Part shown: positions 29,412-47,212 of the stretch, in pieces
Layout: every line of letters starts with the position of its first letter
Position numbering within the stretch: position 1 is the stretch's first letter
From: Truepera sp.
GTDB lineage: Bacteria; Deinococcota; Deinococci; Deinococcales; Trueperaceae
Length of the DNA: 64,000 nt
Reading direction: 5' to 3'
Assembly (NCBI GenBank): GCA_032027045.1
Contig: JAVSMU010000001.1
Location: forward strand, 667,846 to 731,845
Notes under the pieces: generated by a model
Told to the model about the DNA's origin: nothing
What the model saw: only the letters and a program-made list of their open reading frames with translations
Databases searched by the model: none
Made by a program: the position numbers and the translations under genes

Positions 29412-29444
29412 TTGACACCCCGTTGACACCCTTTCGACTACGCT
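29412..29444 (+). promoter_or_regulatory. SARP-type operator and promoter (site 1)
   Basis: TTGACAC (29412-29418), 4 nt, TTGACAC (29423-29429), 9 nt, TACGCT (29439-29444). Neither TTGACA is at the normal 17-nt distance from the -10 box (21 and 10 nt), as expected for activator-dependent SARP promoters. It lies 92 bp after the SARP gene and drives the 29532-38361 genes. The rest of 29321-29531 shows no gene. Confidence 0.65.
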
Positions 29445-29531: not shown

Positions 29532-29726
29532 GTGAAGGACAGCAGTCACAGGTTCTTGTTGAAGGTCTGGTGCGAGTCGGGAGAAAGGCCGGGATGGCAC
29601 GCGGTTCTTAGGGACGTCGTCGACGGGACGTTGCACGAGTTCACGGCTACGGAGGCGTTGGTCAAGTACCTGACCAGCCTCGACGGGATGGCCGGCACCG
29701 CACAGCTCGAGGAGGAAGTCGAATGA
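29532..29726 (+). CDS. 64-aa protein of unknown function
   Basis: This small soluble protein has two predicted beta strands ('HRFLLKVWCE' and 'GWHAVLRDVVDGTLHEFT') followed by a helix ('ATEALVKYLTSLDG'), a pattern I have seen in short uncharacterised proteins. It has no membrane segment or signal. The GTG at 29532 has GGGAG about 5 nt upstream; a GTG at 29511 is a weaker alternative. It is the first gene after SARP site 1 and overlaps the next gene as ATGA, so it is coupled to the envelope operon. Confidence 0.65.
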   Translation: MKDSSHRFLLKVWCESGERPGWHAVLRDVVDGTLHEFTATEALVKYLTSLDGMAGTAQLEEEVE

Positions 29727-43192: not shown

Positions 43193-43224
43193 AGGACCCC
43201 CGAGGGCCGCGCCTCGGGGGTCCT
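43193..43224 (-). terminator. Hairpin in the aspS leader (possible attenuator)
   Basis: A perfect 13-bp stem (43193-43205 with 43212-43224) has a 6-nt loop. On the aspS mRNA it lies about 20 nt after the leader ORF stop and 54 nt before the aspS start. It is followed by CTCTCGTTTG, only a weak U-tract. It could be an attenuator or a simple terminator for upstream transcription. No T-box motif was found nearby. Confidence 0.55.
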
Positions 43225-43365: not shown

Positions 43366-43611
43366 TCAGACGCGCGAGCGAGCGTGCACACCCGTGCCGG
43401 ACGAGGTCTCGGCGCCGCCGAAGAGGCTCGGGAGCATGACGATCCCGGCGAGCCCGACGAGGGTGTAGATGATGGACGAGATGGCGTTCTTCTGACCGAA
43501 CGAGTCGCCGGTGACGGCGGCTACGAGGTCGAAGCCGAAGAGGCCGACGAGCAGCCAGTTGAGGGCGCCTATTATCACGAGCAGCAGCGAGATCAGCTTG
43601 ACGGTACGCAT
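43366..43611 (-). CDS. DUF378 family membrane protein
   Basis: This 81-residue inner-membrane protein has two hydrophobic segments (residues 5-30 and 46-62). The family pattern 'ISLLLVIIGALNWLLVGLFGFDLVAAVTG' and 'IIYTLVGLAGIVML' matches DUF378 (YuzA-like) proteins, whose function is unknown. GGAGG lies 7 nt before the ATG, and the promoter is TTGACA-17-TATAGT. It is divergent from a MerR-B12 regulator whose -35 box overlaps its own, so it is a likely target of that regulator. Confidence 0.85.
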   Translation of the reverse strand: MRTVKLISLLLVIIGALNWLLVGLFGFDLVAAVTGDSFGQKNAISSIIYTLVGLAGIVMLPSLFGGAETSSGTGVHARSRV

Positions 43612-43662
43612 GGTGTTTCCTCCTATGGGTAACCCCGGACCGTCTGTCCAAGGTTTGTCTAG

Positions 43663-43691
43663 ACTATACAGAGATGACTAGGGCTTGTCAA
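43663..43691 (-). promoter_or_regulatory. Promoter of DUF378 gene
   Basis: TTGACA (43691-43686), 17 nt, TATAGT (43668-43663). Near-consensus; the message would begin about 43656 with a 45-nt leader. Its -35 element overlaps the TTGTCA -35 of the divergent MerR-type gene. TGTC(C/T)A(A/G) words at 43645 and 43656 (11 bp apart) and TGTCAAGG at 43686 could be regulator sites. Confidence 0.7.
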
Positions 43692-43713
43692 GGGCGCGTC
43701 TAAGGCATAGGCT
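43685..43713 (+). promoter_or_regulatory. Promoter of MerR-B12 regulator gene
   Basis: TTGTCA (43685-43690), 17 nt, TAGGCT (43708-43713), 6 nt, ATG 43720. The -35 shares five bases with the opposing DUF378 -35, so RNA polymerase or the regulator can occupy only one promoter at a time. Confidence 0.6.
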
Positions 43714-43719
43714 CAGGAC

Positions 43720-44634
43720 ATGTTCACTATCAAGGAAGCAGCCGAGCGAGCGAAACTCAGCCCCGACCTGCTCAGGGCGTGGGAGCGGCGCTACGGCGTG
43801 GTGAGCCCAACGCGCTCCGCGAGCGGCTACCGCCTCTATAGCGCCACCGACATCGAGCGACTGGCGCGCATGCGGCGACTCGTCGCCGGCGGCTACAGGC
43901 CCCTGGAGGCGGCGCTCCACCTCGACTCACATGATCCAGGGCCGGCCTCCCGGGCAGTGGACGGCGGAGGCGGAGCGGCAACCGTGAAGACCCACGCCAC
44001 CGAGGCCACACCGGGGGCAGATAGAGCGCTCGTGGATGCGGCCGCAGCCTTGGACCCTGCAGCCCTTCGGGAGTTCTTCGACGGGCTGGGCGCGCTTGGG
44101 TCGTTCGAAGCCGCAGTGACCGCCCGGCTGTTTCCGGCCTTGCGCGCCCTGGGAGAGGCGTGGGCGGACGGCACCGTCTCGGTCGCGGGCGAGCACATGG
44201 CCGCCGCGGCGGCGTTGCGCTGGCTCGGCCTTCAGTACGAGGCCGCAGCGCGAGACTCGCCCCGGCCCCGGGTCCTCGTCGGGCTTCCGCCCGGGTCTCA
44301 CCACGAGCTCGGCGCCCTTGCCCACGCCGTTGCACTGAGGCGTCACGGGCTGGATGTTCTGTACCTGGGGAAGAACCTGCCGGTGGAGGACTGGATAACT
44401 GCGACGAGCAACACGGGCGCACGACTCGTGCTCGTCGGGGTGGCGCTCGAGGCCGACGTGATCCCCGCCTCGAGAGTGGCCGGCGCCTTAAGGGCGGCGG
44501 TGACCGCTACGAGCGTGTCGTTCGGGGGTGCCGCGGCCGGCGCAGAGAGACTACGCGCGTTCGGAGATGAGTTGCCGGCCGACTTCGCCCTGGCAGCCGC
44601 CAAGGTCGACGAGATCCTCGGCGGGGGACAGTAG
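43720..44634 (+). CDS. MerR-family regulator with cobalamin-binding domain (LitR/CarH-like)
   Basis: This 304-residue putative light-responsive repressor has a MerR winged helix (1-70, 'FTIKEAAERAKLSPDLLRAWERRYGVVSPTRSASGYRLYSATD'). A four-helix region follows, with the W-x9-EH cap motif (Trp148, Glu158-His159). The Rossmann-like B12-binding domain has 'PPGSHHELG'; His195 is a candidate lower axial cobalt ligand (xHxxG with Ser in place of the usual acidic residue). Related CarH proteins bind adenosylcobalamin, repress in the dark and release DNA in light. Here the divergent DUF378 gene and possibly its own gene are likely targets. No carotenoid or photolyase gene is next to it. Confidence 0.82.
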   Translation: MFTIKEAAERAKLSPDLLRAWERRYGVVSPTRSASGYRLYSATDIERLARMRRLVAGGYRPLEAALHLDSHDPGPASRAVDGGGGAATVKTHATEATPGADRALVDAAAALDPAALREFFDGLGALGSFEAAVTARLFPALRALGEAWADGTVSVAGEHMAAAAALRWLGLQYEAAARDSPRPRVLVGLPPGSHHELGALAHAVALRRHGLDVLYLGKNLPVEDWITATSNTGARLVLVGVALEADVIPASRVAGALRAAVTATSVSFGGAAAGAERLRAFGDELPADFALAAAKVDEILGGGQ

Positions 44635-45314: not shown

Positions 45315-45338
45315 AATGCCTATTGCAATGCCTATCGC
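45315..45338. repeat. 12-bp tandem repeat upstream of catalase
   Basis: AATGCCTATTGC is followed directly by AATGCCTATCGC. The region 45160-45460 between the two divergent genes is less GC-rich than its surroundings; apart from this repeat I see no gene or consensus promoter. The repeat could be an operator. Confidence 0.5.
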
Positions 45339-45460
45339 TAGCCGCGGACATTTCTAAGTGCAACCAGTCGCCGGTGCAACTGCCGTGCGCCCTGCCTTCT
45401 GGGAGAATGGACGTCTGCAGAGCGAAGGTCGATGAACGTCAAGGGAGGCAATCGAGAGCC

Positions 45461-47212
45461 ATGGACGACAACAAGAAGCACAAGGCGTCGGTCAAAGGTC
45501 ACGACAGGCTACGTTCGAGCGGTGAAGCAAGCACCGACTCCACGTTGACCACGCGTCAAGGGCATCCGGTCACCAACAATCAAGCTCAACGCACGATTGG
45601 CAGCCGGGGACCGGCGACGTTGGAGAACTACCAGTTCCTCGAGAAGATCAGCCACTTCGACCGGGAGCGCGTGCCCGAACGCGTGGTGCACGCCCGCGGC
45701 TTCGTCGCTTACGGCGAGTTCGAGGCCACCGGCAAGATCGGTGACGAACCTGCGGCCAAGTACACCCGCGCCAAGCTGTTCCAGGAGCAGGGGAAGAAGA
45801 CGCCGCTGGCCGTCCGCTTCTCGACGGTCATCGGCGGCCGCGACTCGTCCGAGGTCGCGCGCGACCCCCGGGGCTTCGCCGTCAAGTTCTATACCGAGGA
45901 CGGGAACTGGGACCTCGTCGGGAACAACCTCGCGATCTTCTTCATCCGCGACGCCATCAAGTTCCCCGACGTCATCCACTCCCTCAAGCCCGATCCGGTG
46001 ACCTTCCGCCAGGAGCCGAACCGCATCTTCGACTTCATGAGCCAGTCGCCCGAGTCGATGCACATGCTGACGCACCTGTTCAGCCCGCGGGGCATCCCCG
46101 CCGGCTACCGTCACATGGAGGGCTTCGGGGTGAACACCTACAAGCTGGTGAACGCCCAGGGGCAGACCGTGCTGGTCAAGTACCACTGGCACCCGCGTCA
46201 GGGCGTCGTGAGCCTCACCCAGGCCGAGGCGGAGAAGGTCCAGGGCAAGGAACTCGGCTCGGCCTCGAAGGACCTGTACGAGGCGATCGAGCTGGGGCAC
46301 TACCCGCAGTGGGACTTCTTCGTCCAGATAATGGACGACCACGACCACCCGGAGCTCGACTGGGACCCCTTGGACGACACGAAGATCTGGCCGGAGGATC
46401 AGTTCCCGCTGCGCCACGTGGGGGTCATGACCCTCAACCGCAACGTCGAGGACTTCCATGACGAGAACGAACAGATCGCCATGGGTACGGGTGTGCTGGT
46501 CGACGGCCTCGACTTCTCCGACGACAAGATGCTGGTGGGCCGCACGTTCTCCTACTCGGACACGCAGCGCTACCGGGTGGGTAGCAACTACCTGCAGTTG
46601 CCCGTTAACCAGCCAAAGGGCGTTAACGGCCGGGTGCATACGCATCTGACGGGTGGACCCATGTCCTACGGCCGTGATCTGGCGCCGGGGCAGAATCCCC
46701 ACGTGAACTACGAACCGTCGATTCACGGGGGCCTGCACGAGGCGCAAGAGGCGGGGCCCGACGACCAACCCGAGGTGCGCGGCAAGGTGACGCGCGCCAT
46801 CATCGAGCGCCGCAACGACTACGTGCAGGCGCGCGGGCGCTACGACACCATGCTGCAGTGGGAGCGCGACGACCTGGTGCACAACATGATCGACAACCTC
46901 TCCCAGTGCGAGCGCGACGTGCAGGAGCGCATGTTGTGGCACTTCTTCCTGATCCACGACGACTACGGCAAGCGCGTGAGCCAGGGCCTGAACATGTCGG
47001 CCGCCGACGTGAAGCACCTCGAGTTGCTGCCCGGCCAGATCCTTACCGAGGAGGACGAACGCCGTCGTCAGAAGCTTGGCGAGAACGGTGACGTGATCGA
47101 TCCCAAGCGGTGGGGGAAGTGGACGAGCTCGGTGGAGAACCGCGCCGGCACCGCGGAGGAAGTGCTCGCGGGCAAGATCGCTTCCGCCGAGCGGGCAGAA
47201 GCAAGCCACTAG
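45461..47212 (+). CDS. katA: Monofunctional haem catalase
   Basis: This 583-residue peroxide-destroying enzyme has its catalytic His77 in '[10 protein letters not shown]' and the catalytic Asn in '[21 protein letters not shown]'. The proximal haem Tyr (near 365) is in '[23 protein letters not shown]'. The first 50 residues are a charged, low-complexity extension ('[20 protein letters not shown]'), longer than in small-subunit catalases, and about 80 residues follow the core. The start ATG has GGGAGG about 13 nt upstream; the long upstream extension of the frame is unlikely to be translated. An oxidative-stress gene near a B12 photoreceptor-like regulator is suggestive but unproven as a link. 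Confidence 0.92.

Follow-up and report, generated by a model that had tools for sequence, protein, structure and literature searches.

The locus described here raises the question of whether a MerR-type regulator with a cobalamin-type sensory domain controls the divergent neighbouring gene, which encodes a protein of the DUF378 family, and whether light and cobalamin are the signals. The window, i.e. the whole 64-kb stretch of DNA analysed, belongs to a 2.92-Mb genome contained in a single contig and, judging by its relatives, of a Deinococcota lineage. The two genes are separated by a gap of 108 bp, and the features in and around it are collected in Table 1.

Table 1. Features of the regulator/DUF378 locus, in window positions.
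Feature	Position	Strand	Basis
DUF378 gene, 81 aa, small membrane protein	43366..43611	-	PF04070
DUF378 ribosome-binding site, AGGAGGAAA	43616..43624	-	read by eye
Predicted operator site 2, exact tandem 11-bp repeats TAGACA-N5-TGGACA	43645..43661	-	pattern, shuffles, matrix
DUF378 promoter: TTGACA (43686-43691), 17-nt spacer, TATAGT (43663-43668)	43663..43691	-	promoter scan
Predicted operator site 1, TAGACG-N5-TTGACA-N5-TAGTCA	43675..43702	-	pattern, shuffles, matrix
Putative regulator promoter: TTGTCA (43685-43690), 17-nt spacer, TAGGCT (43708-43713)	43685..43713	+	by eye
CarH/LitR-like MerR regulator gene, 304 aa	43720..44634	+	Pfam, Foldseek, structure model
Regulator domain order: MerR DNA-binding domain, disordered linker (residues about 72-93), four-helix and Rossmann cobalamin-type domain			

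The regulator matches the Pfam families MerR_1 (56.4 bits for a cut-off of 21.6), MerR and B12-binding_2 above the cut-off, and B12-binding with 28.3 bits, just below the gathering score of 32.1. Its best NCBIfam match is the CarH equivalog NF052513, which scores 128.9 bits for a cut-off of 400. The structure predicted from a 28-row alignment (pLDDT 88.6) has Thermus CarH as its best Foldseek fold match, and comparison with the cobalamin-binding domain of CarH recovers the four-helix and Rossmann fold (rmsd 2.6, TMt up to 0.86). The RxWERRY DNA-binding motif is present as RAWERRY at residues 19-25. The DUF378 protein is assigned to PF04070 with 75.1 bits (gathering cut-off 25). Its model (pLDDT 68.7) predicts, with low confidence, a two-helix hairpin, and the best match of its sequence to solved structures has an E value of only 0.94. 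A strong G+C-rich inverted repeat is visible by eye in the gap between the DUF378 gene and asnS (43194-43224, where the scan lists a short stem) and is possibly a terminator. Shortly past the regulator, on the plus strand, lies a catalase-like gene recognised by eye (45323-47212), an oxidative-stress neighbour.

The DUF378 promoter agrees with the consensus at 11 of 12 positions and is the sole sigma-70-like site in 4 kb, where shuffled sequences give 0.2. The regulator promoter (TTGTCA-N17-TAGGCT-N6-ATG) is weaker and was missed by the promoter scan; with TAGGCT only 6 nt ahead of the ATG, the regulator message would be leaderless. An earlier sequence-only reading had described face-to-face promoters whose -35 boxes share five bases. 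The overlap is confirmed, with TTGACA on the minus strand and TTGTCA on the plus strand, and the face-to-face geometry is ruled out: because the genes are divergent and transcription runs outward, the promoters stand back to back.

The published CarH operator consists of tandem 11-bp repeats of the form nnnnTnnACAn, with the -35 box often within one unit (PMC9304148, partial text). The repeats at the promoter in the gap conform to this pattern. Site 2 is placed just past the -10 box, at the transcription start or leader of the DUF378 gene. Site 1 spans both -35 boxes and combines one exact unit (the TTGACA of the -35 box) with two one-mismatch units in the 11-bp register. The sequence-only reading had offered three TGTC words, at 43645, 43656 and 43686, as possible operators, and all three are indeed units of the CarH repeat. 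The first two form the exact tandem pair of site 2; the word at 43686, tried as a further tandem member, is 30 bp off and out of register and belongs to a separate run, as the exact unit of site 1. When the 108-bp gap was dinucleotide-shuffled 20,000 times, an exact pair appeared by chance on one strand or the other with P = 0.00135; for an exact pair joined by a second pair that has no more than one mismatch, P was 0.0001. Exact pairs number 10 in the 2.92-Mb genome, and matches to the reversed control pattern number 12; taken by itself the pattern shows no enrichment, so it is the location of the site 2 pair that counts.

Exact repeats elsewhere in the genome were also inspected. The window holds a second exact tandem pair, TTGACA-N5-TTGACA-N5-TCGACT (29412-29434, plus strand), in the gap ahead of the ORF at 29723, and no tie of this pair (29412-29428) to the regulator/DUF378 system was found. 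Among five further genomic exact-pair loci, three fall in long ORFs, one lies in a stretch lacking a clear ORF and one is located in a gap, without an apparent connection; the AAAC core is present in none of the five. The triple-repeat pattern has one match genome-wide, a run of TnnACA units beside dnaA at the replication origin (L034, about 1500-1530; G000:C1:2789931). It was rejected as an operator, its units being probably DnaA-box-like words.

The kinship of the regulator points outside its own phylum. No close orthologue from the genus or family was found among 60 relatives, where the best other matches, most of them canonical CarH, share 29-43% identity. Among named genomes, a scan returned one close relative, in Nocardioides phosphati; within the Nocardioides order, homologues at E <= 1e-25, with identities up to 47%, are encoded by 77 of the 293 genomes. 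In the tree, the regulator is nested within a clade of 31 actinobacterial rows (SH-aLRT 100), which suggests lateral acquisition from an actinobacterial lineage. Among plasmid records, the regulator found only matches below 60% identity, Thermus carH being the first. This actinobacterial clade, here termed S-x-H, was examined at 29 loci, at which ten divergent ORFs were scanned for domains. Seven encode a NUDIX domain together with a polyprenyl synthase, one a polyprenyl synthase, one a DNA photolyase, and one is unassigned. The NUDIX domain is presumably an isopentenyl-diphosphate isomerase, and the polyprenyl synthases would be of the carotenoid type. Thus 9/10 scanned neighbours are polyprenyl-synthase or photolyase genes, whereas the neighbour in the window is DUF378, which stands beside the regulator at none of the 29 loci; within this clade the DUF378 link therefore rests on one genome. 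The literature searched contained no experimental study of the clade, and the partial texts of PMC6739363 and PMC12705666 hold nothing on it.

The 11-bp repeat accompanies the relatives of the regulator. An exact tandem TnnACA pair with this period occurs upstream of 21 of 31 regulators from the lineage of the window (a set of 30 loci that includes the second CarH of this genome, plus one further) and of 11/25 actinobacterial regulators, where it always lies on the divergent gene's strand. The other periods from 6 to 24 are found at 0-2 actinobacterial loci (n = 25) and 0-6 loci of relatives (n = 31), and the reversed control at 0 and 0; period 11 is therefore a real feature of the regulator family. 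At the clade-mate loci, exact tandem pairs are found in 18/29, 17 of them on the divergent strand, compared with 1 for the reversed control. A weight matrix was built from 29 sites on the divergent strand, drawn from 17 of the 29 clade-mate loci and none from the window. Site 2 (43642-43664) tops both strands of the 64-kb window with 27.1 bits, the next position scoring 11.8, and fifth and sixth place go to the two site 1 pairs. The training sites were picked by TnnACA pairs, which favours any exact pair, but the other exact pair of the window reaches only 11.8 bits. The operator consensus of the clade in which the regulator is nested thus matches that of the window.

The pairing of such a regulator with DUF378 recurs in another phylum. 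DUF378 is rare in the genomes scanned, with 4/111 in the phylum of the window and 28/396 in actinobacteria; the family extends from Bacillus to Methanosarcina, used as control rows. A MerR-B12 regulator is divergently adjacent at four of the 28 actinobacterial DUF378 loci (G083, G145, G131 and G399), and all four carry exact 11-bp pairs in the gap, compared with 1/24 of the others (Fisher P = 2.4e-4 for the 28 loci). The lone exception, G261, encodes a MerR-B12 regulator elsewhere in its genome (L066). With the group of the window counted, repeats are found at 5/5 loci with an adjacent regulator and 1/27 without (Fisher P = 3e-5). In all five linked loci, a TTGACA unit is placed 66-87 bp ahead of the start codon, with more units in the leader. 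The three DUF378 homologues in the family of the window (57-68% identity over 63-65 residues) have neither an adjacent regulator nor repeats. Inheritance together with conserved neighbours was ruled out: when ten window genes were checked near the DUF378 genes of these three relatives, only DUF378 itself was found, plus a generic ABC match in two.

The four linked actinobacterial regulators occupy a different branch from the regulator of the window, and the DUF378-neighbour label changes at least three times in one tree and twice in the other, counted by starred branches. The link between regulator and DUF378 has therefore probably arisen more than once, although clustering of the label hardly exceeds that of shuffles (49/500 as low in one tree, 500/500 in the other). 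By eye, an FGxxN-type or close loop is common to the DUF378 proteins with repeats; it is also seen in the unlinked protein of G009 and, in a looser form, in that of G001. In G145 the reading frame of DUF378 starts normally and is cut short at 55 aa (L069, 2444-2608). Another CarH-like regulator with repeats is divergent from a gene for a DUF4397 protein (L073, 519-1481), a possible further undescribed target.

The sensory domain retains much of the CarH/LitR core. Trp148, Glu158-His159 and His195, named in the sequence-only reading, are in place in the alignment, so that the Wx9EH motif is intact, and the GxxW, EH, GxxH and GxxxP signature proposed for light-responsive cobalamin domains (PMC11796333, partial text) is kept. 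The D/ExHxxG...SxT/V...GG motif is incomplete: His195, the motif Gly and GG remain, the acidic residue is Ser193 and the serine of SxT is Gly. The residue after the Trp, His132 in Thermus CarH, is Ala149. A His at this position is the upper ligand in the light state of many CarH, not all. It is found in 26/31 CarH of the relatives and in 2/26 actinobacterial homologues. In Thermus CarH it is required for the light-state change (PMC10442372, partial text). At the 29 clade loci the tested W, E, H and H positions are invariant, the acidic residue is replaced in 26 (by Ser or Ala in 23) and His132 is absent from all. With Ser193 and Ala149 at these two positions, neither of them mentioned in the sequence-only reading, the protein is, judging from its residues, a CarH-like variant, not a textbook CarH or certified member of that group. 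The losses are, by alignment, a trait of the clade, yet the clade still adjoins prenyl-synthase and photolyase genes. With modest confidence, this speaks for a cobalamin photosensor that still works, its chemistry in the light state being altered, and against a dead sensor.

The closest characterised counterpart is CarH of Thermus thermophilus (PDB 5c8d/5c8e), which shares the domain order, the fold, Wx9EH, the lower-ligand His, the RxWERRY recognition helix and an operator of 11-bp tandem repeats with one unit inside the -35 box. The two differ in overall sequence (29-34% identity in the structure matches), in the residues equivalent to His132 and Glu175 (Ala149 and Ser193 here), in the target, which is DUF378 instead of carotenoid genes, and in the placement of the repeats at two separate sites. 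The latter layout resembles that of the class II LitR regulators PmlR2/PplR1 of Pseudomonas, whose light promoter has one site at -35 and one between the transcription start and the start codon (PMC9758184, partial text). According to the same partial text, class II LitR keep only one of the two B12-binding domains and recognise TGTACA-N12-TGTACA, whereas the regulator of the window has both subdomains and repeats with 11-bp spacing; PmlR2 uses a LOV partner.

Control of DUF378 by the adjacent regulator, acting at the gap operator, is very probable: the operator matches, the pairing recurs in another phylum and the repeats are nearly absent where the regulator is missing, which upholds this part of the earlier proposal. 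What the regulator senses is more debatable. It might repress DUF378 at the same operator with no direct use of cobalamin or light, in the manner of CarA or class II LitR and with another ligand or partner. The replacements at Ser193, Ala149 and the SxT serine fit such a protein, and B12-independent members of the family exist (PMC9304148 and PMC9758184, partial texts). However, the four core residues and the whole GxxW/EH/GxxH/GxxxP signature are kept, and their invariance at the tested positions of the clade is hard to explain without a cobalamin; moreover, CarA is reported to lack the Trp (PMC9304148, partial text). This explanation is consequently held to be rather unlikely, and the regulator is considered likely to bind a cobalamin. 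Light as its signal is given slightly less credence. The dependence of DUF378 control on both is plausible, given the conserved signatures, the predicted CarH fold, the prenyl-synthase and photolyase neighbours of the clade and a cobalamin adenosyltransferase (PF01923) encoded in the genome.

The genome also encodes a second, canonical CarH (C1:2453093-2453881), with WH, EH and ExH, which could itself control the DUF378 operator and leave the adjacent regulator minor or redundant. Similar repeats accompany the CarH genes of the relatives, in some cases with an identical ACAAACCTTG core, so that operator specificities overlap. Against this, the operator fits the clade matrix of the adjacent regulator far above any other position of the window, DUF378 genes elsewhere bear repeats where a regulator adjoins, and the gap upstream of the second CarH gene contains short one-mismatch runs and no exact tandem pair; a leading role of the second CarH is thus improbable. 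Still less credible is a coincidence of repeats and pairing, with the regulator controlling only itself or distant genes. The genome-wide parity of exact pairs and reversed control would agree with it, but the shuffle P of 0.0001, the matrix scores of 27.1 and 11.8 bits and the four more divergent pairs with repeats make it very hard to sustain. The second CarH gene (L033, start codon 9894, minus strand) forms a divergent pair with a fasciclin-domain gene, and the interval between the two holds degenerate 11-bp repeats (L033 9013-10588; G000:C1 about 2453000-2454600). Two actinobacterial CarH-like regulators (L067 and L076) also face fasciclin genes, with repeats present, and fasciclin may therefore be another recurrent target.

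The explanation preferred overall, and judged somewhat better than even, is a CarH/LitR-like dark repressor of actinobacterial origin that is released by light and thereby induces DUF378. In the dark, the regulator loaded with adenosylcobalamin would assemble on the 11-bp repeats of sites 1 and 2, silence the DUF378 gene and reduce expression of its own. Light would then break the Co-C bond and loosen the regulator from the DNA. The DUF378 membrane protein induced in this way may join the response to light or photo-oxidation, as the recurrence of the pairing in distant bacteria suggests. The sequence-only reading knew of no description of DUF378 as such a target, and this seems to hold, in that no literature joining DUF378 and CarH was found in a search that covers subscription journals poorly. 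Likewise, none of the ten papers found to name DUF378 concerns light by its title, a weak negative given the same poor coverage of subscription papers.

More tentatively, DUF378 proteins with the FGxxN-like loop could act at the membrane in the response to light, having been recruited on at least two occasions, in two phyla, by two separate branches of B12 photoreceptors. In the branch of the window, light sensing would then do without the acidic partner of the His that binds cobalt and also without the His by which Thermus CarH locks its light state. If true, this branch represents a second way to couple B12 photolysis to the release of DNA. Common in actinobacteria, the regulator clade is missing residues considered important for the CarH light switch, and it therefore tests the generality of the Thermus mechanism. 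For DUF378, a family with no known function, the recurring pairing with a photoreceptor-type repressor provides a testable first function, in the light or photo-oxidative response at the membrane.
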